From Paraglaciecola sp. MB-3u-78 (GTDB taxonomy: Bacteria; Pseudomonadota; Gammaproteobacteria; Enterobacterales; Alteromonadaceae), in contig NZ_PJCF01000005.1 in the NCBI RefSeq assembly GCF_002835935.1, forward strand, positions 186,001 to 250,000: a stretch of DNA of 64,000 nt. The letters are read 5' to 3'. Of the stretch, positions 43,664-64,000 are shown piece by piece (position 1 is the stretch's first letter; the number at the start of each line of letters is the position of its first letter). Position numbers and translations under genes: made by a program. The notes under the pieces are model-generated. The model had not been told where the DNA came from and ran no database searches. It worked only from the letters and a program-made list of their open reading frames with translations.

Positions 43664-44584
43664 ATGCAGAATAACAAACTACAACAACTCAACTTTGCCC
43701 AAAAACGCCGCTTGGCTTTTATCGACTTTTTATTGTTGTTTAAAGGTTCATTTTCCCGTGGTGACTTAACCAATAAATTTGAAATGGGTATGGCCAATGC
43801 AACGCGAGATATTGCGCTGTATCGAGAATTGGCAGCAGATAACTGTGAGTTTGATAATCCCGGCAAGCTCTATCGCCAAAGCAAGCTCTTTAGCCCCTTG
43901 TTTGAACATGACGCCCGTAAAACTCTGGTCAAATTAGCCAATAATATCAGTGATGGTTTTGATGCTATTGGCGATATACAGTTTCCCGTAGAAGCGCCCA
44001 GTCAGCTTAACGTGCCAGACATTTTTATCGTCGCCCGTCTGGTGCAGGCCATACTCAATAATAAATCGGTTAGTGTTATTTATACCTCCTTAAGCAGTGG
44101 TTCAGCCAGTCGTGAGCTGGTGCCGCACAGTATTGTTGATAACGGTCTGCGCTGGCATGTTAGGGCATTTGATCGTAAATCATCTTCGTTTCGCGACTTT
44201 GTACTTACTCGTATCTGCAAGGTAAAAATTCTAAACGACAGTGACGACAACGCGCCAAAACAACATGAAGACAAATTCGAAGATCATCAATGGCAGAGAA
44301 TGATGCCACTGCAACTGATACCACACCCTAACAATGTTCAGTTTCCCACTGCCATCGAGATGGATTATGGCATGAGTGATGGCGTGTTGAATTTGAACGT
44401 CAGGGCCGCTTTGGCCGGTTATTTGTTAAGACGCTGGAACGTGGACTGCACCGATGATGCCAGCTTAATAGGCGGCGAATACCAGCTTTGGCTGCGCAAT
44501 CAGCAAACCCTGTTTGGTGCAGAGAATTTGGCTATAGCACCTGGATATAAATCAAAATCAAAATTAGAAGTAGAGGAAGGGTAG
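43664..44584 (+). CDS. brxR: BREX WYL-domain transcriptional regulator
   Basis: Protein of 306 aa. N-terminal winged helix (1-95: RRLAFIDFLLLFKGSFSRGDLTNKFEMGMANATRDIALYREL), a central WYL domain (about 115-195: SVSVIYTSLSSGSASRELVPHSIVDNGLRWHVRAFDRKSSSFRDFVLTRI) and a C-terminal WCX-like dimerisation region. This is the BrxR plan; BrxR represses BREX operons and may respond to a nucleic-acid-like ligand. ATG 43664 follows AGGGAAGT. The stop is 1 nt before the brxA start, so it is the first gene of the BREX operon. Confidence 0.9.
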   Translation: MQNNKLQQLNFAQKRRLAFIDFLLLFKGSFSRGDLTNKFEMGMANATRDIALYRELAADNCEFDNPGKLYRQSKLFSPLFEHDARKTLVKLANNISDGFDAIGDIQFPVEAPSQLNVPDIFIVARLVQAILNNKSVSVIYTSLSSGSASRELVPHSIVDNGLRWHVRAFDRKSSSFRDFVLTRICKVKILNDSDDNAPKQHEDKFEDHQWQRMMPLQLIPHPNNVQFPTAIEMDYGMSDGVLNLNVRAALAGYLLRRWNVDCTDDASLIGGEYQLWLRNQQTLFGAENLAIAPGYKSKSKLEVEEG

Positions 44585-44585
44585 T

Positions 44586-45200
44586 TTGATACCGCAAGCC
44601 AGTTTAAAAAATTACAAAGCGTATTTAGGCGATCTTATCGGCGGTAGTTTGATGATCCGTGAGAGTCAGATCATAGCTGAGCTTTTATTGAAGAAACCCA
44701 CCCAAGAAGAGTGGTTAGATCATATCGTCAATCAAAACATATTGCAGAAACGTTCCGACGCCTCAGCAAAACGCAATGCATCAACTATTAAAAAACGTTT
44801 GGAAGTCTTAAGTGATGAGTTTATCGAGCAGATCGCTTTTGGTAGTACAGAGCTTTCAACTCAAATGATGTTTGCGGCAACATTAATAAACTCAACCTTG
44901 CTAGCTGACTTTATGCGTAGCGTGTTTATAGATGCCAAACATATGTTTCGTGAAAGTATCGACAGTACCGATTGGCAGTCATTTTGGGCTGAGCGTTCAA
45001 GGTTGTTTCCAGAGCTTTCTCAAATGACGGACTCTTCAACTTATAAAATATCCCAGGTAGGCTTTAAGGTATTGGCTGATGCGGGTTACATCGAAACAAC
45101 ACGCAATAAAAAACTTCAAAATGTTTATTTGTTGCCTGAAGTTAGATCATTTCTAACAACGTTGAACCGTGACGATATCATCGCGGCTATGGAGGTTTAA
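44586..45200 (+). CDS. brxA: BREX protein BrxA (DUF1819)
   Basis: BrxA of 204 aa, a small helical, DNA-binding-like core BREX protein. DUF1819 signature: YKAYLGDLIGGSLMIRESQIIAELLL at the N terminus, SDASAKRNASTIKKRLE in the middle and FKVLADAGYIETTRNKKLQNVYLLPEVRSFL at the end. The start is TTG 44586, one base after the brxR stop. Typical order brxA-brxB-brxC follows. Confidence 0.93.
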   Translation: MIPQASLKNYKAYLGDLIGGSLMIRESQIIAELLLKKPTQEEWLDHIVNQNILQKRSDASAKRNASTIKKRLEVLSDEFIEQIAFGSTELSTQMMFAATLINSTLLADFMRSVFIDAKHMFRESIDSTDWQSFWAERSRLFPELSQMTDSSTYKISQVGFKVLADAGYIETTRNKKLQNVYLLPEVRSFLTTLNRDDIIAAMEV

Positions 45201-45206
45201 TCAAGG

Positions 45207-45806
45207 ATGACTTCAGACACCATGACCAATACCGCTACGAATAAAGAACTAAGAATCCGCCTGGATCAAATCATGCCGAAAATAGAAAGCCCAGACTTTC
45301 TTAAAAACCAAGGGCTTGGCAATGAAATAGGGTTCTATGTATTTGACTATCCAGCAGAGTCAGAGCTAGAAGTAAGGGAACACCTTACCTTTATGACTGA
45401 CAAAATGAAGAAACGTGGCAAAACCTTTGCCGATATAAATTTATTTGAAATAGTCATTGAAATACTCGATTCACGAAAACTGACAGAGCGTGCATTTAAG
45501 GTACAAAAGGAGCGTGGTGACGATGCGCTTTTTAACGCCCTTAAAGGGCCGTTGGAACAAAATAGAGTGGCAGAATTTATTGCGAAAAAAGCCAATTTAG
45601 AGAACAGCGAATTTATTTTAGTACACGGTTTAGGTAGCGCATGGCCTATCATCCGTGGACATGGCTTACTAAATGCGCTGCATGCAAAAGTGGGCAGCGT
45701 GCCTACGGTACTATTTTATCCAGGCGAATATGATGGTTTAACACTCAAGCCATTTGGAGAAATAGACTCAAACAATTATTACCGAGCTTTTAAGCTCGTA
45801 CCATAA
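45207..45806 (+). CDS. brxB: BREX protein BrxB (DUF1788)
   Basis: BrxB of 199 aa. DUF1788 signature: LGNEIGFYVFDYPAESELEVREHL, then EFILVHGLGSAWPIIRGHGLLNAL and PTVLFYPGEYDGLTLKPFGEI near the C terminus, finishing NNYYRAFKLVP. It is required in type 1 BREX, with unclear biochemical role. ATG 45207 follows GGAGG. The frame is intact; brxC starts 85 nt later but is cut by an IS after 44 nt. Confidence 0.93.
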   Translation: MTSDTMTNTATNKELRIRLDQIMPKIESPDFLKNQGLGNEIGFYVFDYPAESELEVREHLTFMTDKMKKRGKTFADINLFEIVIEILDSRKLTERAFKVQKERGDDALFNALKGPLEQNRVAEFIAKKANLENSEFILVHGLGSAWPIIRGHGLLNALHAKVGSVPTVLFYPGEYDGLTLKPFGEIDSNNYYRAFKLVP

Positions 45807-45890: not shown

Positions 45891-45934
45891 ATGCAAAGCA
45901 GTATGCAAAATGAAATGCAAATCAAAGAACTCTT
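45891..45934 (+). pseudogene. brxC: 5' fragment of brxC, cut by IS66
   Basis: ATG 45891 preceded by AGGGAAG. The first 14 codons plus 2 nt (MQSSMQNEMQIKEL) end at the target duplication GAACTCTT of the IS66 element. Joined to 47488 the frame continues FNKDIERKINGVVKADQ, the standard BrxC beginning. The reconstituted gene is exactly 1240 codons. Confidence 0.88.
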
Positions 45935-47479
45935 GTAACTACTCAGCGGGTATAAAGATATTAGGCAGCATGCCATTTAATAATAACGTTAATGCCGTGG
46001 ACCCACTGATCCCTTGTTTTTTGCAGCTCGACAGATAGCTACGTAATCCAAAAAACATTTTGGCTCCGTTAGCACTTCTAAAACATCCCGATATCTTTTG
46101 TTGAACCTTTGCCATCCTCAAATCATTTTCGCCCTGATTATTAGTGAATGGCACTGCCTCATCCGTCATGAATCTAAGTACATCGCTTTCATAGTTTTGT
46201 AATCGCTCAAGTAGGTTACGTGATTGAGTTCTTTTAGGCCGTCCTCGCTTACCTTTCACTGGTATCGGCGCAGGACTTTCTTTTTCTCCTGCCTTTAAAA
46301 TCGCTTGATAGTGACGTCGCAAGGTGTCTTGTCTTTCAACACTGAGTAACCCGCCAGCCTTATCTACCTCTTGATTGAGCTTAACTAAAAACACCCGTAT
46401 TTCCTCAGCCCAAGCTTGATTATCTTGCTCATACGCTCGAGTTAATTCTCGCAGGTGATGCGCATTGCATAATGAATGTAGGCACTCATAACGATAATAA
46501 GGTTTCCAATGGTCATGGCACATCACACCGTTGAACTGGGGTAATATGTCAATCTCATCCATGGCATCATGGCCTCGTTTTTCATGGGCTGATAAATACG
46601 TCCAATCCAGAGACGAAGCGTTATGTAGCCATTGTCTTTTTCCGTTGATATTGATGCCAGTTTCATCGGTATGTAATGTCTTTTCTTTTCTCAAGTTCGC
46701 TTTGATAATATCTAATGCTTGCGTCTCTTCCAGTTTGGTAAAAGCGGTATTGATAAAGTTGAAAAGACTGCCGCTGCTCAAAGGTATATTAAGCTGGTCA
46801 GTGAAATACTCACGAATGCGCTCATAAGGCAGTAATTGATATTGGGACAGGTAAACCGCATGAGCTTTTAACCCAATACCATATTGAATACGGCTATTAA
46901 CGTCTTGGGGAAATGGGGCAACGAAGCGTTGACCTAACTCATTCTCAAGTATTTGTGCGCGATATTCAGTGACGACACGCTTAAACTCAATATCGACCAC
47001 TTGCCGCACCTCTTCACCCATATCAGTATAGTTACCGGGCGGTAAAAGTGTGCTATCAACGATTAATTTATGTGTGATGTCAGGGTTGTCATCAAGTGGT
47101 AGCGTTGTGCCTTTATGCCCCTTTTGTCCACCTGATTTTTTAGTACTGTTGCCTTTTGAATTTTTCTTTCTATTTTGATCGGACGAGGGCGGTATACTGC
47201 TGTTATTACTGTTAAGCCCAAGCCGTTGACAGAGTAACGTGACAATAAGAAGCAATAAATCCATAGCAGTACGCATTGAAGGTGACAATGTATTGTCCGC
47301 TTCAATTTGTGCTTTAATGTTATTGATATTCGACTCAATATCAATGCCGCTTACTTTCATTTAGCCACGTAATTATCGAAATAAAACAGTATGATAACGC
47401 TTAGAAATGATCAAGCAAGTCGATCATTTTTTAATTTTTGATCGTTAAAAATAAACTAGATTATGTGCTGAGTAGTTAC
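45935..47479 (-). mobile_element. IS66-family element (ISBst12 type) in brxC, copy 2
   Basis: 1545 bp. Terminal repeats are GTAACTACTCAG at 45935-45946 and its complement at 47468-47479. The exact 8-bp target duplication is GAACTCTT (45927-45934 and 47480-47487). It carries one tnpC-type gene on the minus strand. It is a relative of the element at 29304 (12-bp ends differing by one base). Inserted in codon 15 of brxC. Confidence 0.95.
45939..47360 (-). CDS. IS66 (ISBst12-type) transposase
   Basis: Transposase of 473 aa, full length. N-terminal QRLGLNSNNSSIPPSSDQNRKKN, DDE core LHTDETGININGKRQWLH, CHDHWKPYYRYECLHSLCNAHHLREL and NNQGENDLRMAKVQQKISGCFRS. The stop lies in the left terminal repeat. 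Clearly related to the 29411 transposase, but differences are spread along the length, so the two elements are separate IS types rather than recent copies of one another. Confidence 0.94.
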   Translation of the reverse strand: MKVSGIDIESNINNIKAQIEADNTLSPSMRTAMDLLLLIVTLLCQRLGLNSNNSSIPPSSDQNRKKNSKGNSTKKSGGQKGHKGTTLPLDDNPDITHKLIVDSTLLPPGNYTDMGEEVRQVVDIEFKRVVTEYRAQILENELGQRFVAPFPQDVNSRIQYGIGLKAHAVYLSQYQLLPYERIREYFTDQLNIPLSSGSLFNFINTAFTKLEETQALDIIKANLRKEKTLHTDETGININGKRQWLHNASSLDWTYLSAHEKRGHDAMDEIDILPQFNGVMCHDHWKPYYRYECLHSLCNAHHLRELTRAYEQDNQAWAEEIRVFLVKLNQEVDKAGGLLSVERQDTLRRHYQAILKAGEKESPAPIPVKGKRGRPKRTQSRNLLERLQNYESDVLRFMTDEAVPFTNNQGENDLRMAKVQQKISGCFRSANGAKMFFGLRSYLSSCKKQGISGSTALTLLLNGMLPNIFIPAE

Positions 47480-50400
47480 GAACTCTTTAATAAAGATATC
47501 GAACGTAAAATTAATGGAGTAGTTAAGGCAGACCAACGAGAAGACGATGTAGTTTTCACCGAGCTTGATGAATACGTGGTCACTAAAGAGCTGTTTACGC
47601 ATTTCGAAAAGTTTTTTGATTGCTACATGCCCTCGGTACGCGATCCAAAAGCAAAAGCAGCCTCTGGCAAGTTAGGTATCTGGGTAAGTGGTTTCTTCGG
47701 CTCAGGTAAATCACATTTCATCAAAATTCTTTCTTATCTTTTGCAAAATATTGAGGCTAAAAATGGCACGGTAGACAGAAAAGCTATCGATTTCTTTAAG
47801 GACAAAATTCAAGACGGTTTTCTCATTGGTGAAATCGACACCGCCATCACCAAAGAAAATACCGTTATTCTGTTCAACATTGATAGCCGTGCCAACACCG
47901 ACGATGGTGACGACGCCATCTTAAAAGTATTCCTCAAGGTATTTAACGAGCAAATGGGCTTTAGTGGCGATCACCCGCATATCGCTCACTTAGAACGAGA
48001 ACTTAAAAGCAAAGGTGTATTAGAACAATTCCATCAGACATTTGAATCACTGGCAGGCATGAGTTGGTTAGAAAACCGTGATTCATACGACTTCTATCGT
48101 GATGACATGACCGAAGCCCTGGCTAAAGTAACAGCGCAATCAACAGACTCAGCGCGGCAGTGGGTTGAGCAACTCGAAAACAACTTTACCCTCGACATTG
48201 CGAATTTTTGTAAATGGGTAAAAGAATATTTAGATGTTAGCCAAGACCGCCGCGTTTTATTCTTTGTTGATGAAGTAGGGCAGTTTATTGGCAAAAACAC
48301 CCAGATGATGTTGAAGTTACAAACAATCACTGAAAACTTAGGGACGATTTGTGAAGGCCGTGCCTGGGTGGTGGTGACTTCTCAAGAAGATATCGATGTG
48401 GTGTTAGGTCACATGTCGGGTTCAAAAAGCCATGATTTCTCTAAAATCCAGGCTCGCTTTGAACGTTTATCTCTTTCAAGCTCAAATACCAGTGAAGTCA
48501 TCGAAAAGCGTTTGCTCGAAAAACAACTACCTGCACGAGAGTTACTCTCAAAACTGTACGATGAAAAAGGCGATATTCTGCGTAATCAATTAGCTTTCGA
48601 CTCAACTACAACAGCAGAGATGGCAAACTATAAAGACGCAACCAGTTTTATCCATAGTTACCCCTTTGTGCCGTATCACTACACCTTGGTTCAAAAGATA
48701 TTTGAAGGGCTGAGTAAATCTGGTGCCGCAGGCATGCACATGGCAAGAGGAGAGCGCTCATTGCTAGACGCCTTCCAATCAGCAGCGCAAATAATCAGTA
48801 ATCAAAAAGTCGGTGTTTTAGTACCCCTACATTATTTTTACCACTCCATTGAAAACTTTCTGGATACCGCCGTTAAGCGCGACATACTAGAAGCGGCTGA
48901 TAAAGAATCAATATCAGATTTTGCAGTCGATTTATTAAAAACCCTGTTCTTGATCCGTTATGTAGACGCGATCAAATCAACATTGGATAACCTCGTTACC
49001 CTATGTGTGAGCAAAGTAGATGAAGACCGCCTAGCGCTGCGTCATAACATCGAAACTGCGATTAATTCATTAGAGCAAAACTTGTTAATTGCCCGCCAGG
49101 GTGATGAATACATCTTCTTAACCAACGAAGAAAAAGAAATTGAAAACGAGATCAGAGAAACTGAAATAGAGCTATCTGATGAAACCAACAAACTAAGCAA
49201 CATCATATTTGATGAGATCCTGCGTAGACAAAACATCTATCGCTACAAAGAAAACAATCAAGATTTTCCGGTAAGTCGTTTCTGTAATGGTATTCCAAGG
49301 GACGGCTCACAAGAGAATGATCTTGTGGTTAAAATCATTTCACCCATCGACCCCAACTACAGTGAATATAACAAGGCTGTTTGCGCGAATCATTCTCAAG
49401 AAAGTAATGGGTCAATCATCATAAAACTTGCGGATACCTCTAAGGTATTTGAAGAGATCCGCTCCTTTATTAAAACCGACAAATTCTTAAAACGTACCAG
49501 TGGTAACAGACCAGAGCAGCAACAGCTATTAAACCAAAAGGGATCTGAAAACCAAAAACGTAATGGCCGCATTAAAGATGCGGTTGAAGCGTTATTAAAA
49601 GAGGCTGAATTTTATGCCTTAGGCTCAGAGCAAAACCCCAGAGGTAGCGCAATTAGCCATATTTTAGATGAAACCTACAAGTACGTTATCGAAAATACCT
49701 TTAGCAAGCTCAAATTAGTGAAACCCTTCCCAGGTGATATTCGCCGAGAAATCCAAAATACCCTTATCGCCGATGACATAGCGCAAATCGGCTTGGATCT
49801 TAATGCCGAAGAAGTGAACCCATTAGCTTCGCTAGAAGTTGAAAAGCATATAACCCTAGCTGATGACACCAGCCGCCCAGTTACTGCTGAAGACATCGTT
49901 AAACGTTTTTCTAAACGTCCTTTCGGTTGGAACGATGATGAAATACTGCTAATCATGTCGCGTTTGGCGTTATCCAATAAAATCAGCTTTCAAATGCGCC
50001 AGCAAGATGTCGTGCTTAGAAGTGCTTACGATAATCTAATACAAGTGCGCAAACGTGCCGAAATGCGGGTCAGGCGTATTAAGCAGCAATCAGAAGCTAA
50101 CCTAAAACGGGCGGCCAAGTTATTCAAGGACTTCTTCGGTAAAAATGCACCAGATAGTGAGAAAGAACTGTTTAATATCGCTCAAGAAAACCTAATCAAC
50201 ATGAAAGCCAAACTTGATGCCTTTGCGAATAAAGCGTCGACGGGCAAATACCCTGGAGGTAAAGACATAGAGCAAGGCATTGTATTGTTAGCAGGCTTAA
50301 CTGAATTACCCTCTAGCTTTCAGTTTATTGAACAGTTTTTAGCAAGTGACAACGACTTGCTTGATTTTGAAGAAGACTATCAAGACTTAGATAACTTCTA

Positions 50401-51163
50401 CGAAACACAATTCTCAACTTGGCAAAAGCTGCATAAAGCCTTAACCATAGACTTTGACCGTAACCGCAACGCCCTGGAAAAGGATGCCAACGCACTACAG
50501 GCTTTGCAGAAGTTAGCAAGCATCTACAACAATGAACGACCGTATCGCGATATCCGAGATATCGAACCCACCATTGAAAAAGTGGCTAAGGTAAATGAAT
50601 CACTGTTATCTGACAAGCGTGCTCATGCTAAATCACGCATCGAACATCGCATTGAGCAAGTAAAACAACAAATTCAGGAAGCAAATGTACCCAGTGAATT
50701 AAGTAATAAAGCGCTGCGGCCATTGCAGTTGGCCTTGCAAGGTATTGATGGTTTAACAGGTATTGCTGAAATCCTGCAAGAGCAAGCAGACTCTATCAAT
50801 CTGGAAGACGATGCCCACGATCTTATCAATAAGTACATTGAAGAGCAGCAAGCATTATTTGAGAAAAAAGCCAAAGAGGACGCTCAAAAAGCAGCTCATG
50901 CAGCCACTCAAACAGCAGCGCAACCTAGCGAACAAGGCAATGCCGCTTACGTACCGACTACAAGCAAACCTCTAAAAGTAGCAGAGCCCGCACCGCAGCC
51001 CCCTCCTAAAAAGATCGTATCAATTGATACCTCAAGTATTATGCGCGAGGTTAACAGCGCAGGTCTTATCGAAACAGAACACGATATAGATAACTACCTG
51101 ACAGCGCTAAAAAACAGGCTGGTCTCATTGGTTAACAGCAACAATAAAGTGCGTATCAAATAA
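47438..51163 (+). pseudogene. brxC: BREX P-loop protein BrxC, main body (N terminus replaced by IS end)
   Basis: BrxC is the large P-loop NTPase of type 1 BREX. True coding restarts at 47488 after the duplication. The Walker A motif GFFGSGKSHF lies near residue 85 of the rebuilt 1239-aa protein, a Walker B-like VLFFVDEVGQF follows, and the C-terminal part holds coiled coils (RRIKQQSEANLKRAAKLFKDFF) and an Ala/Gln/Pro-rich linker. The open frame now runs back to a TTG at 47438 inside the IS66 right end, giving an alternative N terminus of about 14 foreign residues but no clear ribosome-binding site. It may thus be weakly expressed or silent. Everything after codon 15 is intact. Confidence 0.9.
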
Positions 51164-51181: not shown

Positions 51182-53098
51182 ATGAACACTAAAAATTTAA
51201 AAGCCTACGCACCAAAAGCACGTCGTCAATTTATTGAAGCGATAAAACAGCGTGCTGCTCAATTGGGTATTTATGAAGACAGATTTGCAGAAGTACAGGT
51301 CGAAGGGGGGGCAGCCATCATCGAAGGCCGTGCCTTCACCAAAAAACAAGGTGAGCAACGTAAACGCCTTGCACAGAAGATTGAAGAGAAGCCTTTAGCC
51401 ACTCATAAAGAGCGGTATAACCTATTTATTCGTGAAATGGCCTACACCTGGTTTAACCGTTTAGCCGCTATTCGCTACATGGAATTGCATGACTATTTAG
51501 AGCATGGCTTTCGTGTGCTCTCTAATCCCAATAGCCCTGACAGCCTGCCTGAAATACTCGACCATGCCTCGGATGTCGTCGATATCTTAGATCCCAATGG
51601 CGCTTCAAATGGGCAAAAGTATTTGGATAAAAACCATATTATTGAACTTCAATTAGCGGGTAACAAAGAAGAAGAGTTATACCGCGAGTTGTTACTAGGC
51701 CAGTGCCATTATTTATACAACATCATGCCTTTCATGTTTGAGGCGATTGATGATGCTACTGAGTTGCTCTTACCAGACAACCTCACCAAAACTGACTCCA
51801 TCTTAAAAGGTTTAGTCAACGAGATCCCAGAAGAAGACTGGCAGGAAATTGAAGTAATCGGTTGGTTATATCAGTTTTATATCTCCGAACATAAAGATGC
51901 GGTTATCGGCAAGGTGGTTAAGTCTGAAGATATCCCCGCCGCGACTCAGCTTTTTACCCCCAACTGGATAGTCAAATACCTGGTACAGAACTCTGTGGGC
52001 AGACAATGGTTAGCTACCTATCCGGAGTCCGAGCTTAAAGGCAAAATGGAATACTACATTGAGCCTGCCGAGCAAAGTGCAGAGGTCATAGCACAACTTA
52101 AAGCCATTACCCCAAGCAGCATCGATCCAGAGCAAATCAAAGTGCTAGACCCAGCCGCAGGCTCAGGCCATATATTAGTGGAAGTCTACGAGGTTTTGCG
52201 GGAAATCTACCTTGAAAGGGGCTATCGCTTACGGGAAGTACCGGAGCTGATCCTCACCAAAAACATCTACGGCCTAGATATTGACGACCGCGCAGCACAG
52301 CTTGCTGGCTTTGCCCTCATGATGAAAGCCCGTGAAGATGACAGGCGCATTTTTCAGCGGGTGCAAGACGGTGACGTGCATCTTAATGTGTATTCACTGC
52401 AATCAAGCGAAGGTCTGGACATAGACAAGCTCTGGGCTGCTCTGGATTTAGAGGGCATACAACAAACGGGTACTACAGGTGGATTATTTGATGAACCAAC
52501 CGACGTCATTCCCGCACAGGCGGGGATCTATGCAGACTATCTGCAATTATTTAATTACCTCAAAACATCCTTTCTACAGGCCAAAACCCTGGGTTCGTTG
52601 ATCCAGATTGAACAAAAAAAATTAGACCGACTAAAAAACCTACTGAAAATTTTAACCGAGAAAATGCAAGGATCAGACCCAGCGGCTAAACATGCTGCTG
52701 TAGCGTTAATGCCCATTGTGAACCAGGCCATTTTGCTTGCCCAACAATATGATGCCGTGATCGCAAATCCGCCTTATATGGGTGGTAAGGGCATGAATGC
52801 AGATCTTAAGGAATTTGCTAAGAAGCAGTTTCCTAATTCAAAGTCAGATCTATTTGCGATGTTTATGGAAAGAGCATTTGGCTTGCTGCATGACAATGGC
52901 TACAACGCTCAGGTTAATATGCAATCCTGGATGTTTCTTTCAAGCTATGAAGTACTTCGAGAATGGTTACTAGCGACTAAAACCTTTGTCACAATGGCAC
53001 ATTTAGGAGCAAGAGCTTTTGGACAAATATCAGGCGAAGTGGTTCAAACTTCAGCGTGGGGTAAGCGGCTAATCAACCCACGTATCAAACAGTCGTAA
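51182..53098 (+). pseudogene. pglX: PglX (BrxX) DNA methyltransferase, N-terminal fragment
   Basis: PglX is the adenine-specific methyltransferase that marks host DNA in BREX. This fragment covers codons 1-626 (to 53060) plus 12 IS-encoded codons. It holds motif I VLDPAAGSGH (321-330) and the catalytic NPPY (529-532), but not the C-terminal specificity half. ATG 51182 follows AGGGAAGTAG. It is cut by an IS66 element whose 8-bp duplication AGCGTGGG is at 53053-53060. A REP-like palindrome inserted in frame encodes VIPAQAGIY at 442-450. Confidence 0.92.
52508..52527. repeat. REP-like palindrome inside pglX
   Basis: ATTCCCGC-ACAG-GCGGGGAT, a short palindromic element of the widespread ATTCCCGC/GCGGGAAT kind, read in frame as VIPAQAGI. 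It lies between methyltransferase motifs I and IV. Confidence 0.6.
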
Positions 53099-54701: not shown

Positions 54702-54736
54702 GCCCGATATTATACTAAACTTGAGGCTAAAAAGCC

Positions 54737-55401: not shown

Positions 55402-55493
55402 GTCATTTCCTCACTTGATTTCAGTGACGAAATTATGCACCAGCGGTAATGGTAAAATAAGACCGTGGGTTTATTTGGCGCTTACAGCGTGGG

Positions 55494-55712
55494 TGCTAAA
55501 CAAGGCGCATATTGATACTTATAAACCGGTTTTTTTCCGACTAACTAAAGGGAACGAAGAGGAAAAGAGGGATTCTCTAGTTAATAAATTGAATAAGTTT
55601 GATGAAGCAGCACAGAGTGATTTTAAAAAAATCCCAGGATTTCCATTGTCATACTGGTTTTCAAACGAAATCCCAAAAATTTTCAGTGAGAATAATTCTC
55701 TTAAAAATATTT
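55494..55712 (+). pseudogene. pglX: PglX middle fragment between two IS elements
   Basis: A 219-bp island of pglX coding sequence: VLNKAHIDTYKPVFFRLTKG, then RDSLVNKLNKFDEAAQSDFKKIPGFPLSYWF and SENNSLKNI. It is bounded by the IS66 duplication on the left and the IS21 duplication TATTT (55708-55712) on the right. It joins in frame to both flanking fragments. Confidence 0.93.
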
Positions 55713-55929
55713 TGCATATTAACATCCAACCCGATCACCTAATAACATTGATGCCGATCACCTAATAACATCCATCCCGATCACTCAATAACATCGAAGC
55801 CGATCACTTTATGGTTAAAATGTTATTGAGTGACCGGCTTAATGTTATTGCCCAACTTTTACTCTTTTTTGTCTTTCCAGTAGGTGTTTTTAACCGTTAT
55901 TCTTTTCATTTTTGATGGTGAGAATAACT

Positions 55930-57474
55930 ATGCCAATGGCACCTATTTCAATGCGTAAGTTAAAAGAGATTTTAAGACTCAAATACGGCTGTTTGCTCAG
56001 CCATCGAAAAATAGCCAAAAGCTTATCTATTTCAGCGTCAATCGTGTCTATTTATGCCATTCGTGCCACCTCTCTTGGGATCACTAGCTGGCCGCTTGAT
56101 GAAAAATGGAATGATGAGACGCTTCAACGAGCATTCTTCACAACCAAACCTAAGAGCAAGGGCTACATCATCCCTAATTGGTCTGTCGTCCAGCAAGAGC
56201 TGAGGCCGAAAACGATGACATTGCAGTTATTGTGGGAAGAATATGGTGAGCGGTATCCAGAAGGTTTTTACAGCTACAACCACTTCTGTCGTCTATATAA
56301 AACATGGCTAACATGTCAAAAACCGTCCATGCGTCAAAACCATAAAGCAGGTGAAAAACTGTTTGTTGATTATTGTGGACCCACTATGAATATTGTGGAC
56401 TCAACAACGGGTGAATGCCGCACAGCACAGGTTTTTGTGGCAGTCATGGGCGCATCTAACTACACCTTTGCAGAGGCTACGTTTAGCCAAAAACTCGAAG
56501 ACTGGGTGATGAGTCATGCACGATGCTTTGAATTTCTGGGTGGCGTACCTGAATTGGTCATCCCAGATAACTTAAAAAGTGCCGTGACAAAAGCGTGTCG
56601 TTACGAGCCGGATCTGAACCCAACCTACCAACAACTCGCCGCCCATTACGATACCGTTATCGTGCCTGCCAGACCTTATAAACCCAAGGATAAATCGAAA
56701 GCTGAGGTGGGTGTTCAAATCGTTGAACGTTGGATAATGGCGCGACTTCGCAAGGAAAGCTTTTTTAGCTTGCGACAGTTAAATCTAAAAATACAGACAC
56801 TTTTAACCGATTTGAATCAAAGGCAAATGAAAAAGCATCCAGGCTCAAGGCTATCCCAATTTGAAGCGATAGATAAACCCGCACTGAAACCTTTGCCGTC
56901 ACAACCTTATCGCTACACCTTAGTGAAACAGGTCAAAGTGCATATTGATTATCACATCGAGATTGAAAAACATTACTACTCGGTGCCACACGCCTTGATC
57001 AAGAAAAAGCTAGAAGCACATGCTACGGGGCAACTGGTCACACTTTATCATCAAGGGGTACAAGTGGCCGTTCATCCAAGATCATACCGCGTGGGAGGTC
57101 ACAGCACCCTGGATATCCATATGCCAATCGCCCATCAAAAACAGCAGCAATGGACCCCCGAACGATTTGAAAGTTGGGCAAGAAAATTCGGAAAATCAAC
57201 CGAGCAATTTGTCATTCAACTCATGCAAACCAAAAAACACCCCGAGCAAAGTTACCGTGCCTGTATGGGCGTATTGAGTTTAGGAAAAAAGTTCACAGAC
57301 AAACGACTTGAAGCTGCCTGCTACAGAGCTTTAGCAACAGGTGTTACGCGAGTAAACCAAGTGAAAACTATCTTAGAAAAAGGTTTAGATAGCCAACCTC
57401 TACCGGAAAAACAACTGGATCTTCTAAGTGAGATCGACCATCAAAATATCCGTGGCAATCATTATTACCACTAA
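55930..57474 (+). CDS. istA: IS21 transposase IstA
   Basis: Transposase of about 514 aa. The HTH domain is at the N terminus (MRKLKEILRLKYGCLLSHRKIAKSLSISASIVSIYAIRA). The DDE core shows EKLFVDYCGPTMNIVD near 140, VPELVIPDNLKSAVTKA near 205 and KPKDKSKAEVGVQIVERWIMARL with the Glu near 245. The frame stays open to 55912 but ATG 55930 follows GGTGAGA at good spacing. istB starts 20 nt downstream. Confidence 0.94.
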   Translation: MPMAPISMRKLKEILRLKYGCLLSHRKIAKSLSISASIVSIYAIRATSLGITSWPLDEKWNDETLQRAFFTTKPKSKGYIIPNWSVVQQELRPKTMTLQLLWEEYGERYPEGFYSYNHFCRLYKTWLTCQKPSMRQNHKAGEKLFVDYCGPTMNIVDSTTGECRTAQVFVAVMGASNYTFAEATFSQKLEDWVMSHARCFEFLGGVPELVIPDNLKSAVTKACRYEPDLNPTYQQLAAHYDTVIVPARPYKPKDKSKAEVGVQIVERWIMARLRKESFFSLRQLNLKIQTLLTDLNQRQMKKHPGSRLSQFEAIDKPALKPLPSQPYRYTLVKQVKVHIDYHIEIEKHYYSVPHALIKKKLEAHATGQLVTLYHQGVQVAVHPRSYRVGGHSTLDIHMPIAHQKQQQWTPERFESWARKFGKSTEQFVIQLMQTKKHPEQSYRACMGVLSLGKKFTDKRLEAACYRALATGVTRVNQVKTILEKGLDSQPLPEKQLDLLSEIDHQNIRGNHYYH

Positions 57475-57493
57475 TAAAACCTAAGGAAACAAC

Positions 57494-58258
57494 ATGCAAT
57501 CAGTGACGCAACAAATCAATACTCAATTAGCCACGCTAAAGCTAAGCGGCATACGTGATGCGTTATCACAACAAAGTGAACAACCCAATCTATACGTCGA
57601 ACAAAGCTTCGAAGAGCGGTTATGTTTATTGCTTGACCATGAAATAACCCAGCGAGATCAACGTAAAATAGATCGACTGACCCGCCAAGCCAAATTTAGA
57701 GTGAACGGGATATTAGCCCAGTTGGATTATGGTGCGTCGAGGCAGTTAAACAAAACGCAGATCCGCTCATTAGCACAAGGTGAATGGCTTCGTCTTCATC
57801 AAAACATACTGATCACAGGGGCAACAGGTTGCGGTAAAACCTATCTTGCTTGTGCGTTGGGTCATAACCACTGCCAGCAGGGAGAAAACGTTTACTACTT
57901 CAGGCTCAAAGAATTGCTTGAAAAGATGTTTATGGCACAAGCGGATGGCAGTTATCGAAAATTGATTAACAAACTCACGTCAGCAAATTTACTGATCTTA
58001 GATGATTGGGGATTAGAGCCATTAACGCCGCAACAACGCAGTGATTTACTTGAGTTAATTGATGCGAGGTATGACACAAAATCCACACTGATTGCGAGTC
58101 AATTACCAATAGAAAATTGGTACGATATGATCGGTGAATCCACACATGCAGATGCGATCCTAGATCGGCTTGTTCACGGGGCAATTAAGTTAGAATTAAA
58201 AGGCGAATCCATGCGAAAAAAACTAAATTCCTTGACTGAAGCCGATCACACAAGTTAG
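57494..58258 (+). CDS. istB: IS21 helper ATPase IstB
   Basis: AAA+ ATPase of 254 aa, DnaC-like, which activates IstA and selects target DNA. Walker A GATGCGKTYLACALG near 112, Walker B LLILDDWGLEPLT near 170 and the arginine-finger region ESTHADAILDRLVHGAIKLEL near 215. N-terminal NLYVEQSFEERLCLLLDHE is the typical IstB domain. Intact. Confidence 0.95.
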   Translation: MQSVTQQINTQLATLKLSGIRDALSQQSEQPNLYVEQSFEERLCLLLDHEITQRDQRKIDRLTRQAKFRVNGILAQLDYGASRQLNKTQIRSLAQGEWLRLHQNILITGATGCGKTYLACALGHNHCQQGENVYYFRLKELLEKMFMAQADGSYRKLINKLTSANLLILDDWGLEPLTPQQRSDLLELIDARYDTKSTLIASQLPIENWYDMIGESTHADAILDRLVHGAIKLELKGESMRKKLNSLTEADHTS

Positions 58259-58342
58259 ATTTTACTGAGTTCTACTGGAAGACAAAAAAGTGATCGTCTT
58301 CAATGTTATTGACCGATCGGTTTCATGTTATTACGCATATTT

Positions 58343-59970
58343 ATCACCCAAGACAAGGCAATACCACAACAAATAATGATAGATTTGTAAGATCTTGGTG
58401 GGAGTTAACTAGAAGGAAGATTGCTTTAGATTGTTCCGATGTTGACGAATTTGTTCATAACCAGTCTATGTGGGCACCATACAACAAGGGAGGGGGTAAC
58501 CGTAAGTGGTATGGCTTAAATGAATCCGTCGTTAATTGGGAAAATAATGGGCAAGAAATTAAAGCTATAAAGCACTCAGTTGTAGCAAATGAAAATATGT
58601 ATTTCCAGCCAGGTATAACTTGGTCCACTGTCAGTACAAGTAAATCACCAGGATTTAGAAAATATGGACATGGATTCATATTTGATAACAAAGGTGCAAG
58701 TATAAGAGTTGACTGTGAAGAGCATCTGATATTTATTTCTTCTATTTTGAACTCAGTAATTGTTTCGGAAATTATTGCAGAATTAGCACCTTCTGTATCC
58801 CTTCAACCAGGTGACATTGCAAAAACTCCAATAATTAATTACACCCCGATTTCACATAAAGGAATTGTTGAGCGAAGCAATGAACTAATAAAGCTTAGTA
58901 AGAAAGATTGGGATAACTCAGAATTGTCGTGGGATTTTAAAGAAAATTTTTTAACGAATCAAAAAAACTCAAAATTAAAGTTAATTATTCATTCTTATAT
59001 AGATGATTGTATAGAACTTACTGAAAAGATGAGTCAGTATGAATCAGCAAATAACAGAGAATTATTAACGCATTATGGTCTGGAAGCTGCGTTTAACGAA
59101 AAAGTGAATCTATCGGATATTACAATTAATGCAAACCCTCTTTATCGATATAAATCTAATGAGCTAAATTCACTGATAATTGAAAAATTTAAATCTGACC
59201 TAAACAGGGAATTAGTAAGTTACTCAATCGGTTGCATGATGGCCCGCTACTCACTTGACCGAGAAGGGTTAGTCTACGCCCATGCAGGTAACGAAGGCTT
59301 TAAAGAGCTGGTTGTTGAAGGCGCTTACCAAACTTTTCCTGCTGACGACGATGGTATTATTCCTTTAGCTTCAGAAGACTGGCTTTTTGACGACGATGCC
59401 ACCACTCGCTTCAGCGAGTTTGTAAAGACCGTTTGGGGAGCAGAAAATCTGAGTGAGAACTTAACGTTTGTCGCTGAAAGCCTGCGTTTACATGCCTTAA
59501 ATCCCAAGAAGGGCGAAGGAGCAATGGACACCATCCGCCGTTACTTCTCTACCCAGTTTTTCAAAGACCACTGCAAAACCTACAAAAAACGACCAATCTA
59601 TTGGCTGTTTAGCTCAGGTAAAGAAAAAGCCTTTGAATGTTTAGTGTATTTACACCGCTACAACGAGGGCACCTTATCCCGTATGCGTACCGAATACGTC
59701 ACACCACTCATGGGTAAATACGAGCACCATCACAGCAGCCTACAACAACAGATTCTCGAAGGCAGTACCGAACAAAAACGCCTTGCCGAAAAAGCCCTTA
59801 AAGACCTGGAGAAAAAACAAGCCGAACTACGCACCTTCGACGAGCAACTCAAACACCACGCCGAAAAACGTATCAGCCTAGACCTCGACGACGGCGTAAA
59901 AGTTAATTACGGCAAATTCGGCAACTTACTCGCCGACGTAAAAAACATCCACGGCGTGGCGGTGAAGTAA
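58343..59970 (+). pseudogene. pglX: PglX C-terminal fragment
   Basis: The last 542 codons of pglX after the IS21 duplication, starting YHPRQGNTTTNNDRFVRSWWE and ending NYGKFGNLLADVKNIHGVAVK. It holds the target-recognition and C-terminal conserved region (ALNPKKGEGAMDTIRRYFSTQFFKDHCKTYKKRPIYWLFSSG). The open frame starts inside the IS21 end (58303), but this is not an independent gene. Total rebuilt pglX length is 3726 nt, 1242 codons. A second, diverged copy of its last 30 codons lies at 61399-61504. Confidence 0.92.
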
Positions 59971-60019
59971 ATGATTGCAAATATGCTTTATGTCAGTACA
60001 ATTTGCATTCTTGGAACTT

Positions 60020-60039
60020 TGACACTATATATGGTGTCA
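60020..60039. promoter_or_regulatory. Palindromic operator of the hicAB-secB module
   Basis: TGACAC at 60020-60025 pairs with GTGTCA at 60034-60039 around an ATATAT core; 18 of 20 positions are symmetrical. It ends 1 nt before the hicA start and overlaps a TATATA-type -10. HicB antitoxins commonly repress their own promoter through such dyads. Confidence 0.6.
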
Positions 60040-60040
60040 C

Positions 60041-60325
60041 ATGAGTAATGTTTTGTATGATGATGTAATACAGGCTCTTAAAGGAGCGGGTGCCTCAATG
60101 CGTTGTATTGAGGTTAAAAAGCACCTAGAGTCATTAGGCTTTACCGTTAAAGACGGTAAAAGAGGTGGACATAAAGTATTCACTCATCGTCATATCGAAG
60201 ATTTTACTTCAGGTGCGTTTAATTGTGATCATGGAAAAAACCCTGAGATCAAGCGCCCGTATATAAAGCAAATAATAAAAATACTTGAAAAGTATGAAAA
60301 AGAATTGATTGAATATCTTGAGTGA
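60041..60325 (+). CDS. hicA: HicA-family mRNA interferase toxin
   Basis: Protein of 94 aa. HicA fold: N-terminal helix DDVIQALKGAGASMRCIEVKKHLESLGFTV, then DGKRGGHKVFTHRHIEDFTSG with the catalytic-type His in GGHKVF, and C-terminal IKRPYIKQIIKILEKYEKEL. HicA toxins cleave mRNA when free of HicB. Longer than the 58-aa E. coli form owing to an extra N-terminal helix. It is first in the operon, with its ATG 1 nt after a palindrome and no clear ribosome-binding site, so it may be leaderless or weakly translated. Confidence 0.85.
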   Translation: MSNVLYDDVIQALKGAGASMRCIEVKKHLESLGFTVKDGKRGGHKVFTHRHIEDFTSGAFNCDHGKNPEIKRPYIKQIIKILEKYEKELIEYLE

Positions 60326-60344
60326 TCTCAAAAGGGATAAAAAA

Positions 60345-60854
60345 ATGGTAGATGCAAGTTTATACAATATTACAGTAAGAAAAGGTGATTTTGATGGAGA
60401 AACCTTTTTTGAAGCAAAAATTAGAGAATTGCCAGACGTTGCTGAATATGCTGAAACATTTGAAGAGGCTTATCAATTAGCATTAGATTCAATTGAAACT
60501 ACTGCTGAGCTAATGCAAGAGCAAGGTAAAGTCATGCCTTCACCTATGATCGAAGAACAAAATTTCAGTGGCAGAGTGACATTACGGATGCCGAAGTCAA
60601 TGCATGCTTCATTTGCTGGTTGGGCTGACTTTGAAGAAGTGAGTTTGAATCATTTGTTGGTTAACTGTTTGTCTATGTGTTTGGGTGACCATTTTGCGGC
60701 TAAGACAACTAAGCTAGAGAAAAACGATTATGCTCTCGGAAGCCAATATTCAAGCGATTCGTTGCGAATAGTAAGTAAATCGAAATCGAACGTGGTAGAC
60801 CTTAGACGTATTGATATAACTGAAGATGAGGGGAATAAACTTGCATATGGTTGA
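60345..60854 (+). CDS. hicB: HicB-family antitoxin
   Basis: Protein of 169 aa from ATG 60345, which follows AAGGGAT; a TTG at 60309 is less likely. The HicB RNase-H-like domain (about 15-55: DGETFFEAKIRELPDVAEYAETFEEAYQLALDSIE) binds the toxin. The ribbon-helix-helix DNA-binding part is SGRVTLRMPKSMHASFAGWADFEEVSLNHLLVNCLSMCLG. A C-terminal tail of about 50 aa (after 120) is longer than usual; in TAC systems such a tail (chaperone addiction region) is what makes the antitoxin depend on its SecB-like chaperone. That role here is inference. Confidence 0.85.
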   Translation: MVDASLYNITVRKGDFDGETFFEAKIRELPDVAEYAETFEEAYQLALDSIETTAELMQEQGKVMPSPMIEEQNFSGRVTLRMPKSMHASFAGWADFEEVSLNHLLVNCLSMCLGDHFAAKTTKLEKNDYALGSQYSSDSLRIVSKSKSNVVDLRRIDITEDEGNKLAYG

Positions 60855-61353
60855 TGATCCAGATTTTCAAACAGTCAAAGATAGCTTGGTGTTTAATGAT
60901 ATTTATATTAAGAGCACTAATGCCTCATGCGCTGATGATTGGGACCCGAAGCGCTCAGATATAGATGACGTGCGCTTTAAGTTCATGCACCAGATTAAAA
61001 CTTCGGAAGTTCTCACTGTAGAAGAAAATGGAGATTCGAGGCAATATTTTAGAGTCAATTTACTGGTTGGTTGTCGGTTTGTTAAAGCTGATGACAATGA
61101 AGAAGACGAAATGAAGGCTCAAATTGAAGCCACTTTCTGTGCTGAGTATCTGATGACTAGAGAGGATGTTAACCCAGATGGTCTAAAAGTTTTTGCCCTT
61201 GAAAATGTAAGTTACCATGTTTGGCCATATTGGCGAGAATATTTGGCCAATATGTGCAGTAGATTTAACCTCCCGAAAGTTCCATTACCAACTCGTCAAA
61301 TTAAGATTAAAAAACGTAAGAGTGAAGTTGACACAAAACAAACTCCTGAATAG
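60847..61353 (+). CDS. SecB-like chaperone of a toxin-antitoxin-chaperone module
   Basis: Protein of 168 aa overlapping hicB by 8 nt. It has the SecB fold pattern: beta-strands with RVNLLVGCRFVKADD and IEATFCAEYLM, and the near-diagnostic C-terminal helix NVSYHVWPYWREYLANMCSRFNLPKVPLP, which parallels SecB's [22 protein letters not shown]. It is not the housekeeping SecB. Chaperones of this kind stabilise the antitoxin of TAC systems (e.g. Rv1957, CmdC). Start could be ATG 60847, TTG 60841 or ATG 60826; the best ribosome-binding site (GAGGGG) sits between the last two. Confidence 0.78.
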   Translation: MVDDPDFQTVKDSLVFNDIYIKSTNASCADDWDPKRSDIDDVRFKFMHQIKTSEVLTVEENGDSRQYFRVNLLVGCRFVKADDNEEDEMKAQIEATFCAEYLMTREDVNPDGLKVFALENVSYHVWPYWREYLANMCSRFNLPKVPLPTRQIKIKKRKSEVDTKQTPE

Positions 61354-61398
61354 TCTCAGTTTCCATATGAAACGTGTCTAATTTCGTGTAAATAACGA

Positions 61399-61504
61399 AA
61401 AAGACATTACCCGCAATCTCTACGAGGGTGTAAACATCAATTACGGCAAATTCGGCAATCTTCTGGCAGATGTGAAAAAAATCCACGGCGTGGCGGTGAA
61501 GTAG
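61399..61504 (+). pseudogene. Second, diverged copy of the pglX 3' end
   Basis: About 105 bp reading KDITRNLYEGVNINYGKFGN, then LLADVKKIHGVAVK and TAG. It matches the last 30 codons of pglX at 59881-59970 (NYGKFGNLLADVKxIHGVAVK shared) with many synonymous changes. An upstream stop shows it is not part of a gene. It brackets the hicAB-secB module together with the true pglX end. Confidence 0.85.
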
Positions 61505-61505
61505 T

Positions 61506-61967
61506 TTGAACTCAAACCCACAACAATTTTCGCGCAAAGAATTGGCAGATTTTTATGAGCGGCTTATATTGCTTTGGGAAAATGGCGACCTGCTAAATCA
61601 GACTTTTAATATACGTGTAGGTAAAACCTTTCGCCGACTAAAAGAACAATATTCATTTGAACTTCATGCGCATGCCACTTTAGATGAAACTAAAGCAGCT
61701 TTCGATAATATAAATCTGAATGTCTCTACTGATAGTAAAAATACCATCCACTTACACAATGCCAAGAACAACATTTTAAAGAGTTATTTTTATCATATTA
61801 GAAATGTTGCAGGCCATGCTGATATTCAAAAGTTAAAGTTCAAGAATGTTAATTGGTACGTATTTGAACACATGTATTCAAATCAAATAAAACTCTTTGG
61901 CATGTTTAAAACCGCCGATTTTTGGAAAGTACATGGTGAGTTAGTCAACTTGCGCAGGATAAAGTAA
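61506..61967 (+). CDS. HEPN-like small protein paired with helicase
   Basis: Protein of 153 aa, start TTG 61506, one base after the pglX-tail stop. It is mostly helical. Near residue 100 it has KSYFYHIRNVAGHADIQKL, an RNxxxH-type motif typical of HEPN nucleases. No other domain is recognised. Its stop overlaps the helicase start (TAATG), so the two proteins are made together. Whether the motif is a real active site is inference; it could also be a non-enzymatic partner of the helicase. Confidence 0.6.
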   Translation: MNSNPQQFSRKELADFYERLILLWENGDLLNQTFNIRVGKTFRRLKEQYSFELHAHATLDETKAAFDNINLNVSTDSKNTIHLHNAKNNILKSYFYHIRNVAGHADIQKLKFKNVNWYVFEHMYSNQIKLFGMFKTADFWKVHGELVNLRRIK

Positions 61968-63301
61968 TGGAATTACGTCCCTATCAGCAAGAAACTGTTT
62001 CTGAGTTAATCAACTTTTGGTTGCTAAATAATCTAAACGCTGGGCTTTGCGTGTTGCCAACTGCAAGTGGTAAAACGGTTGTTTTTGCCGAATTTATCCG
62101 AGAAGCATTGTTAATTAAACCTGAAACGAAAGTATTGATTCTGGGACATACTCAGGAAATAGTTGAGCAAAACGCAGAAAAGTTAATAACGGTATGGCCA
62201 GAAGCCAATGTAGGCATATATTGCGCAGGACTTAAGCGAAAAGAAATTAAGCAGGTCACTTCCGCCAGTCGAGATTCTATCATTAAAGAAATTGGTGAAT
62301 TCGCAGACTGGGATATTGTTATTGTCGATGAGGCGCATCTAATATCCCCCGAACTCACAACCCGTTATCAGTTCATCATAAGTACAATTCAGCTCCACGG
62401 TAAAAAGCCATTTTTACTTGGTTTTACTGCTACGCCATTTAGAACAAAATCAGGCAATATTTACGGCGATGATGACAATCAACTATTTAAAAAACTGATC
62501 TACCAAAAGCGGATTGATGAATTGCAAAGTACTGGATATTTATGTCCGTTGCGGGCAGTGGTAACTGACTTCAAAGCCGTAGTGGATACCAGTAAAGTTA
62601 GAAGAACAGAGCAGGACTTTGTGCAAACTGAGTTGCAAGCAGTAACCGCTATAGAATCAGTGGTTACAGGCATAGTGCAAGACTGGCTTAATAAAACCAA
62701 TGCATCTCTACCCACAGTATTTTATGCCAGCTCAGTGCAGCAAGCAGAAATATTTGCCGACGTGTTAAAAATATTTGGGTTTGATTTTCCGCTTATTACT
62801 GCCAAAACAGAAAAAACATTGCGTAAACAGTGGTTGAATGACTTTGAGGTTGGTGAGCAAAACGGGTTAATTAACGTTGCGACCTTGACCACAGGTTGGG
62901 ATGCTCCAAGGTTATCTTGTATTGTGATGGCAAGACCCACTCTTAGCCCTGGTCTGTTTTTGCAAATTCTGGGACGGGGCTTGCGACTGCATAAATCAAA
63001 GTCCGAAACATTGCTATTAGACTATGGAGAAAACATACAACGTTTCGGTGTGATAGAGCGTATTGGACCAATCATGGAGTCCAGATTTTACCATGATGAG
63101 AAATCTCTGATAATTGTATGCCCTACTTGCGAAACCATAGCTTCGGTATACCAGTTGGAATGCGACGCGTGTACAGAAACGTTAAGACATGAAGATGATG
63201 TAAGTGTATGTTATGAATGTAATTCACCTAACGATAGGTACGCTAAATACTGTGAAGTGTGCGGGGTAGCGTTAGAAGAGAATATGGGTTTTTATCAATA
63301 A
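61967..63301 (+). CDS. RadD-like SF2 helicase with C-terminal zinc ribbons
   Basis: Helicase of 444 aa. Walker A PTASGKTV (31-38), DEAH at 121-124, motif III FTATPF near 155 and motif VI LQILGRGLRLH near 332. The C terminus (about 385-440) has four CxxC pairs (CPTC, CDAC, CYEC, CEVC), forming two zinc ribbons. This plan is that of RadD/YejH, which acts in DNA repair, but the genomic place between pglX and pglZ suggests a BREX-linked or independent defence role. The stop overlaps the pglZ start by 1 nt. Confidence 0.85.
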   Translation: MELRPYQQETVSELINFWLLNNLNAGLCVLPTASGKTVVFAEFIREALLIKPETKVLILGHTQEIVEQNAEKLITVWPEANVGIYCAGLKRKEIKQVTSASRDSIIKEIGEFADWDIVIVDEAHLISPELTTRYQFIISTIQLHGKKPFLLGFTATPFRTKSGNIYGDDDNQLFKKLIYQKRIDELQSTGYLCPLRAVVTDFKAVVDTSKVRRTEQDFVQTELQAVTAIESVVTGIVQDWLNKTNASLPTVFYASSVQQAEIFADVLKIFGFDFPLITAKTEKTLRKQWLNDFEVGEQNGLINVATLTTGWDAPRLSCIVMARPTLSPGLFLQILGRGLRLHKSKSETLLLDYGENIQRFGVIERIGPIMESRFYHDEKSLIIVCPTCETIASVYQLECDACTETLRHEDDVSVCYECNSPNDRYAKYCEVCGVALEENMGFYQ

Positions 63302-64000
63302 TGAATATAGAACAAATAAAACAAGGCATCCTAGCCAAATTTGAAAAGAGCCGTTTGGTATTTTGGCAGGACGAAGACATAGAGTTTCAGGAACCGTTGC
63401 CTGAAATTGCTGCTGAATTGAATTTATTAGGTATTAATGTAATCGCCCTTGATGATGAGTCTCATTTTGAGGTTAAACAACGTATTGAGCTGTTAGAGCC
63501 ACAGCAGCAGTTTTTACTTTATAGTAATAAAGCGGTTAATGAACCCACAAGAGACTGGTTGTTCGATATCCGCTTATATGCTCAGCAGTTTTATGCCGAT
63601 TCCAGCTCGATGATTTTAAGTGAGCTAGGCATGAGGATGGAGTTTCGCCAGTTAGTTGGCCGTTACAAAAAATTCTTTGGCAATAAACAGCGTTATTCCA
63701 AACTAAAAAAATTATTACCTAACAACGCGGACAAAGATGTTTTAGAGCTTACGATGATAGCGACTTTGGTAAAAGTTGAAACTGTTAGTTTTAACGCAGT
63801 TTTACATGAGTTGATTAGTCGTTATAACGAGTCTGTTGAAAAATCTAAGGAATTGTTCGATGAGTTTGAAAAGTTCGGCTTAGACACAGTATTTTGGCAA
63901 TGTGCCATTGAAGACTTAGGCTATATTGGGCTTGGTCTTTGGCTAGAAGACAATAGCAAACCCACGTTAAAAGACCTTGTTACTAAGCTTTTGGTGACTG
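63301..64000 (+). CDS. pglZ: BREX phosphatase-domain protein PglZ (partial, N-terminal)
   Basis: The first 233 codons of pglZ, cut by the window end. Starts MNIEQIKQGILAKFEKSRLVFWQDEDIEFQEPLPEI, typical of type A PglZ, then RDWLFDIRLYAQQFYADSSSMILSELGM and NADKDVLELTMIATLV. The alkaline-phosphatase-like catalytic domain would lie beyond the window. TAATG overlap with the helicase gene. brxL is expected next in a type 1 locus. Confidence 0.88.
   Translation, partial: MNIEQIKQGILAKFEKSRLVFWQDEDIEFQEPLPEIAAELNLLGINVIALDDESHFEVKQRIELLEPQQQFLLYSNKAVNEPTRDWLFDIRLYAQQFYADSSSMILSELGMRMEFRQLVGRYKKFFGNKQRYSKLKKLLPNNADKDVLELTMIATLVKVETVSFNAVLHELISRYNESVEKSKELFDEFEKFGLDTVFWQCAIEDLGYIGLGLWLEDNSKPTLKDLVTKLLVT

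Follow-up and report, generated by a model that had tools for sequence, protein, structure and literature searches.

The 64,000-nucleotide stretch of DNA analyzed here (the window) comes from Paraglaciecola sp. MB-3u-78 (contig NZ_PJCF01000005.1, positions 186,001 to 250,000), whose 6.48-Mb draft genome consists of 87 contigs, and it carries a broken type 1 bacteriophage exclusion (BREX) operon. Three insertion sequences (IS) lie in two of its core genes, brxC and pglX, and our analysis indicated that an ordinary operon was probably hit three times amid a recent genome-wide expansion of IS66 and IS21 elements. In what follows, L-numbers denote related BREX loci and G-numbers denote genomes, G000 being the host genome; L004 covers the sequence past the end of the window. 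The operon and its insertions are arranged as follows.

43664–44584, plus strand: brxR-like gene for a WYL regulator, whole (PF13280; alignment with seven relatives places it upstream of brxA)
44586–45200, plus strand: brxA, intact (PF08849, 5e-47; PADLOC)
45207–45806, plus strand: brxB, intact (PF08747, 3e-37; PADLOC)
45891–45934, plus strand: 5' end of brxC, with a probable conserved start at 45915
45935–47479, minus strand: IS66a, a single-transposase IS66-type element in brxC (1545 bp; PF03050; 13-bp perfect terminal inverted repeats)
47480–51163, plus strand: remainder of brxC (ELFNKDIERK onward), open (PADLOC BrxC, 1348 bits)
51182–53060, plus strand: pglX codons 1–626, the methyltransferase part (PF07669; PADLOC)
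53061–55485, minus strand: IS66b in pglX (2425 bp; tnpC 53085–54701, tnpB 54737–55102)
55494–55712, plus strand: middle fragment of pglX (73 codons), at about the point where the recognition domain begins
55713–58337, plus strand: IS21-family element in pglX (2625 bp; PF22483, PF01695; istA-like gene 55912–57474, istB 57494–58258)
58343–59970, plus strand: 3' part of pglX, with target recognition, spacer, and C-terminal region (PADLOC)
63259–64000, plus strand: 5' part of pglZ; the whole gene runs beyond the window (L004 2259–5024)
L004 5031–7232, beyond the window: brxL, whole, after pglZ

Type 1 BREX systems methylate a 6-bp asymmetric motif (m6A) and exclude phages. The Pfam, PADLOC, and NCBIfam results combined recovered all six core genes, brxA, brxB, brxC, pglX, pglZ, and brxL, in the operon-like standard order. 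PglZ was assigned to type A (TIGR02687, 767 bits; cut-off 270), and PglX matched the BREX-1 model in both its N-terminal part (NF033452, 768 bits) and its C-terminal part (584 bits; cut-off 500). The locus therefore shares with type 1 BREX carrying a WYL brxR the core gene set, the gene order, the type A PglZ, and the BREX-1 PglX model. It departs from the standard system in its interrupted brxC and pglX, in the HicAB-SecB and RadD-like cargo between pglX and pglZ, and in the PDC-S14/DUF4357 gene behind brxL. IS elements stand in the reading frames of brxC and pglX, and the whole genome holds only one brxC match, the present one; the locus is a broken type 1 BREX. Both the system and the damage are of known kinds. 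In a literature search, no title or abstract opening among the matches listed reported IS elements in brxC or pglX, although such reports may exist, and the top-ranked matches contained nothing on Paraglaciecola.

All three elements are complete, with a family transposase, terminal inverted repeats, a direct target duplication, and multiple genomic copies. IS66a is flanked by the 8-bp duplication GAACTCTT (45927–45934 and again 47480–47487), IS66b by the 8-bp duplication AGCGTGGG, and the IS21 element by the 5-bp duplication TATTT (55708–55712 and 58338–58342). The ends of the IS21 element were set by nine other genomic copies with duplications of their own; a reading of the duplication as GCATA, giving a pglX of 3735 nt, was rejected, as these nine copies assign TGCATA and GCA to the element. 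Upstream in IS66b, a 100-amino-acid open reading frame (ORF; 55099–55401) without a Pfam match occupies the tnpA position. With the IS66 family (the three-gene type for IS66b and its single-transposase relative for IS66a), the elements share DDE_Tnp_IS66, 8-bp duplications, and GTAA...TTAC ends, and with the IS21 family an istA/istB pair, TGC...GCA ends, internal 23-nt repeats, and duplications of 5–8 bp; nothing in either case was unusual. The genome holds eight full copies of IS66a, of which three, including the one in brxC, are identical and five differ by one base. There are ten full copies of IS66b, all identical (one without a duplication), plus one partial copy, and ten full copies of the IS21 element, the one in pglX being identical to one other, while the remaining eight belong to a second variant at 98.36% identity. 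Beyond the window, brxL is followed by the PDC-S14/DUF4357 gene and then by a DUF3293 gene, whose last codons are replaced by a fourth IS, an identical IS66b copy (L004 8367–11235).

Removal of IS66a in a script restored a brxC frame of 3720 nt, and removal of IS66b and the IS21 element a pglX frame of 3726 nt; both lengths are divisible by three, and neither frame contains an internal stop. A previous sequence-only reading of this DNA had reported the same two stop-free lengths, together with intact brxR, brxA, and brxB genes and three complete elements (two IS66-type, one IS21) bounded by exact duplications; rejoining of the flanks reproduced the numbers, and the Pfam and PADLOC matches and the 8-, 8-, and 5-bp duplications agreed with the rest.

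The damage to brxC is confined to its start. Among 57 relatives, 17 were inspected and all 17 have a possible start codon at the place of the 45915 ATG (M in 15, V in 2), several with an MQIKDLF-like beginning, and translation of brxC presumably starts at this ATG. IS66a begins 20 bases behind it, and brxC has lost its ribosome site, its start, and four conserved codons; E-L-F is recovered from the duplication's right copy, which limits the loss of conserved residues to four. Behind IS66a, the frame is open from TTG 47438 or GTG 47465, both within the element, and BrxC might still be weakly produced from one of these codons. As judged from the letters, brxC is predicted to be mis-started, not destroyed, with its protein-coding part nearly untouched.

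Because the brxC frame stays open beyond its start, pglX is the decisive lesion. IS66b was inserted after codon 626 and the IS21 element after codon 699, while the motifs GSG (327) and NPPY (529) are retained. In Salmonella PglX, the methyltransferase spans residues 227–661 and the recognition region 662–849 (PMC11341690; this paper and the others cited below by PMC number were drawn on in part). Mapped with an offset of ~20 residues taken from NPPY (529 vs 509) and assumed constant, IS66b lies near the methyltransferase end and the IS21 element close to where the recognition domain begins. The methyltransferase is severed from the DNA-recognition part and 73 codons are in neither large fragment; a working PglX is therefore not to be expected. 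E. coli loses both protection and modification when brxX (pglX), brxB, brxC, or brxZ (pglZ) is deleted (PMC6326788). We infer that BREX methylation and defence should probably be absent. The sequence-only reading had called the locus silenced, which holds insofar as the locus is probably non-functional, pglX being cut twice, and overstates the case for brxC, of which only the start region is lost.

A different view is that the operon is still partly active, with BrxC made from an element-borne start and PglX as two separate pieces, as might be the case in the related locus L038, where pglX takes the form of two ORFs around a Shedu gene, divided at about the same residue. The openness of brxC from TTG 47438 or GTG 47465 would allow this, as would ATG 58303 in the IS21 end, which opens the 3' part of pglX. 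However, no Shine-Dalgarno-like stretch was seen by eye before TTG 47438, GTG 47465, or ATG 58303, and both large pieces would lack the 73 codons at which the recognition domain begins, so we consider partial activity very improbable.

Comparable damage has been described elsewhere. The StySA BREX of Salmonella laboratory strains is likewise a type 1 operon in which more than one gene has suffered an inactivating change; there, the changes are mutations in brxC and pglZ, whereas here they are insertion sequences in brxC and pglX (PMC9009780). The pglX gene is frequently disrupted or phase-variable in other systems, and it is broken here too; unlike in the phase-variable cases, the lesions are IS copies and show no sign of a switch (PMC9122589).

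The age of the insertions was judged from the elements and from the interrupted genes. At ~53–89% identity in the core proteins, the nearest relatives are too distant for dN/dS on the recent branch, and decay was instead gauged by counting departures from residues on which all other sequences agree (eight others for brxC and seven for pglX). The alignments omit, for lack of a match or for coverage below 90%, L047 pglX, L010 brxB, the pglZ of L007, L010, and G013, and the brxL of all relatives. The brxC of the window departed at 11 of 534 such columns (relatives, 0–156 of 523–679) and its pglX at 13 of 465 (relatives, 4–63 of 456–515), and neither stops nor invariant-column departures gave a sign of decay in brxC or pglX. 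The uninterrupted pglZ departed at 85 of 493 columns (L006 at 86 of 494, the other four at 0–29), a high figure that partly reflects three near-identical sequences and was given no weight in either direction. As the element copies are 98.4–100% identical, stops are absent, and departures at invariant residues are few, the hits are recent. The earlier proposal that both genes were whole when hit and have decayed little since is thereby supported.

The host genome contains 58 matches to the IS66 transposase (PF03050), compared with 0–7 in each of 21 congeners; in the four single-contig congeners, where repeats cannot be collapsed between contigs, the numbers were 0, 6, 1, and 4. It also holds 13 IS21 and 22 other rve-type transposases after weak and double rows were dropped. 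For the clustering test, fragments, weak matches, and IstA rows that repeated an IS21 count were removed (8 of 58 IS66, 4 of 17 IstB, and 10 of 32 rve rows), which left 85 IS sites. If insertion is uniform, the expected number of triples within 5.8 kb of ancestral DNA anywhere in the genome is 0.24 (P ~0.20). Three IS triples fell within 15 kb and five within 20 kb, two of these five involving BREX. Full copies of the three elements with a target duplication interrupted open frames of at least 120 codons in 15 of 27 cases, or 12 of 24 without the BREX hits; random flank positions lay inside such frames in 641 of 960 cases.

The sequence-only reading had taken three hits in one operon to imply selection rather than chance, namely that a cost of BREX or its attack on the cell itself favoured insertions that broke the operon, more than once. 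The requirement for both brxC and pglX in protection and modification in E. coli (PMC6326788) is in line with this idea, as are the tightness of the BREX triple and the operon-specific probability given below. However, the IS expansion is genome-wide (58 matches vs 0–7), half of the other copies also interrupted open frames, a triple as tight as this one somewhere in the genome has a P of ~0.20, a single hit in pglX suffices so that the others need no selection, and the brxC hit spares nearly the whole coding sequence. We therefore regard selection against BREX as unlikely; it is not needed for an explanation. In the reading that we prefer, of an operon hit during an IS expansion, the first hit may have been tolerated or useful and the later ones would have fallen in an operon that was already not working, where they may have been neutral once a first disabling hit had occurred.

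Several points weigh against this preferred reading. No triple among the 85 sites is as tight as the BREX triple, and no other fits within 12 kb. For the operon as a target fixed in advance, three or more hits have a probability of 0.002 at a uniform rate, rising to 0.015 if insertion is tolerated in only 3 Mb; the genome-wide value is the fairer one because the operon was chosen as striking. Several of the congener genomes are drafts from which IS copies may be lost; the counts cover IS66, IstB, and rve-type transposases, so the IS rates are lower bounds; the open frames scored here are frames not demonstrated to be genes; and one genome of the species was compared, so that strain comparison can neither order nor date the hits.

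A further possibility is a stepwise loss, in which one lesion left a harmful, partly assembled BREX whose toxicity selected the later hits. The "toxic genetic states" described for StySA (PMC9009780) and the slower growth upon loss of BrxR, BrxB, or PglZ (PMC9122589) make such a course conceivable. Such states arise mostly from loss of PglZ, BrxL, BrxB, or BrxR, however, and all of those genes are whole here, so we judge this sequence of events to be quite unlikely.

Related loci were examined for comparable lesions. The N-terminal part of pglX was matched in 5 of 22 genomes of the genus, of which three were close, namely the host, G013, and G020. In G013 and G020, pglX is an uninterrupted frame (1236 and 1231 codons, respectively), and the brxC and main pglX matches are each a single stop-free high-scoring segment pair, G013 having in addition a displaced tail. 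Among the 57 loci, possible pglX lesions were a single-base frameshift in L047 and a stop within the match in L022, L052, and L053; other possible lesions were stops in L006 pglZ, L010 brxA, and L028 brxL, and a brxC in two pieces in L060. Divided pglX matches, which may be gaps, splits, or cassettes, occurred in L038, L048, L050–L052, L054, L056, L059, and L060. Of the loci with possible lesions or a divided pglX, L038 and L047 were inspected, and assembly errors are possible. In L047 (Pseudoalteromonas sp. T1lg48, 10791–10819), a frameshift at about codon 270 lies in an otherwise whole pglX and may be a sequencing error or a phase switch. In L038 (Methylacidiphilum sp. Phi MAG, 10001–14959), pglX is present as ORFs of 649 and 591 amino acids that flank a Shedu gene (SduA_C, PF14082, 1.2e-36), with a 4-base overlap at the first junction; this is apparently a natural split PglX, divided at about the residue where IS66b landed. 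PMC12839542 notes an earlier link between Shedu systems and BREX; HicA and SecB are mentioned 0 times in its main text.

Between pglX and pglZ, the window carries the following cargo.

60041–60325, plus strand: hicA (HicA/HicB domains PF07927 and PF05534 in this and the next gene)
60309–60854, plus strand: hicB with a C-terminal extension
60826–61353, plus strand: gene for a SecB-like protein
61396–61503, plus strand: displaced copy of the pglX 3' end, 79% identical to 59862–59969
61506–61967, plus strand: gene for a 153-amino-acid cargo protein, with relatives in L047 and G013
61967–63301, plus strand: gene for a RadD-like SF2 helicase (PF04851; NF053632, 231 bits, below the cut-off of 720)

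The likeness to SecB came from a profile of four SecB-like proteins, which matched one PDB sequence, 5mtw_C (Rv1957), with an E-value of 0.0039, while Pfam gave no match. The hicA, hicB, and SecB-like genes together probably form a toxin-antitoxin-chaperone module carried as BREX cargo. The HicA-HicB-SecB-like module was also present in L005, L008, and G013. Family searches with the 153-amino-acid protein gave no match. Extra genes between pglX and pglZ, including DUF262 endonuclease genes, are known from Acinetobacter BREX loci, where accessory genes occupy the same place as here (PMC10117892). The present locus differs in that HicAB-SecB, a RadD-like helicase, and a pglX tail lie between the two genes; tails go unmentioned in the part of that paper drawn on.

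The cargo module extends into pglX itself. Window positions 59731–61414, comprising the last 240 nt of pglX together with hicA, hicB, and the SecB-like gene, matched G013 (L068) at 93.3% DNA identity, so that the final ~240 nt of the pglX 3' part belong to the module common to both. In G013, a complete pglX and another cargo come first, and the block starts behind them in a displaced pglX fragment. In the window, an older pglX tail (61396–61503) stands behind the HicAB-SecB module. Similar brackets of pglX tails surround a GmrSD-type gene and a SEC-C protein gene in Aliivibrio (L010 13365–17346; 333 nt, 91%) and a Fic gene and two family-less ORFs in Rhodoferax (L036 6236–8292; 150 nt, 92%).

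Extra copies of the pglX 3' end as a tail alone were found in 4 of the 46 loci that have this end. L006 and L045 carry a second whole or near-whole pglX, hence the second copies of the pglX 5' end in 2 of 56 loci, and extra copies of the ten ends of brxA, brxB, brxC, pglZ, and brxL numbered 0 in the 23–48 loci scored for each. The excess of tails over other ends gave a Fisher P of 1.4e-4, with loci taken as independent though one module is common to two of the four. When the tail was searched against 395 genomes of the host's family, 16 gave matches, three of them two matches each (the host, G013, and G315); in G315, both matches lie inside frames, of 1221 and 1121 codons. Tails at cargo are thus a minority pattern. 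It is an evenly balanced question, in our estimation, whether the cargo modules each carry a pglX 3' end and tail recombination inserts, stacks, and releases them, leaving scars, with an operon whose pglX is dead still able to dock them. A circle carrying a tail and cargo that recombined into pglX would leave such a bracket. No title or abstract opening among the matches listed in a literature search reported pglX tails at cargo, HicAB-SecB in BREX, or Shedu inside pglX, although such reports may exist.

Upstream of the BREX operon lie two further features.

40073–40149, plus strand: tRNA-Arg (CCG), beside a tyrosine integrase (ARAGORN)
40548–41720, minus strand: Phage_integrase-type tyrosine recombinase (Pfam PF00589)

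The tRNA-Arg and the integrase probably mark the left edge of an island. A second att repeat of the tRNA-Arg region was not found in the 104 kb searched; the sole hit was a 16-nt match of the region to its own opposite strand.

Taken together, this locus is a clean and recent example of a defence system that was probably lost during an IS expansion, and it cautions that clusters of IS elements should not be read as selection without a genome-wide control. The pglX tails at cargo, in turn, offer a testable route by which BREX operons may gain and exchange defences without an integrase.

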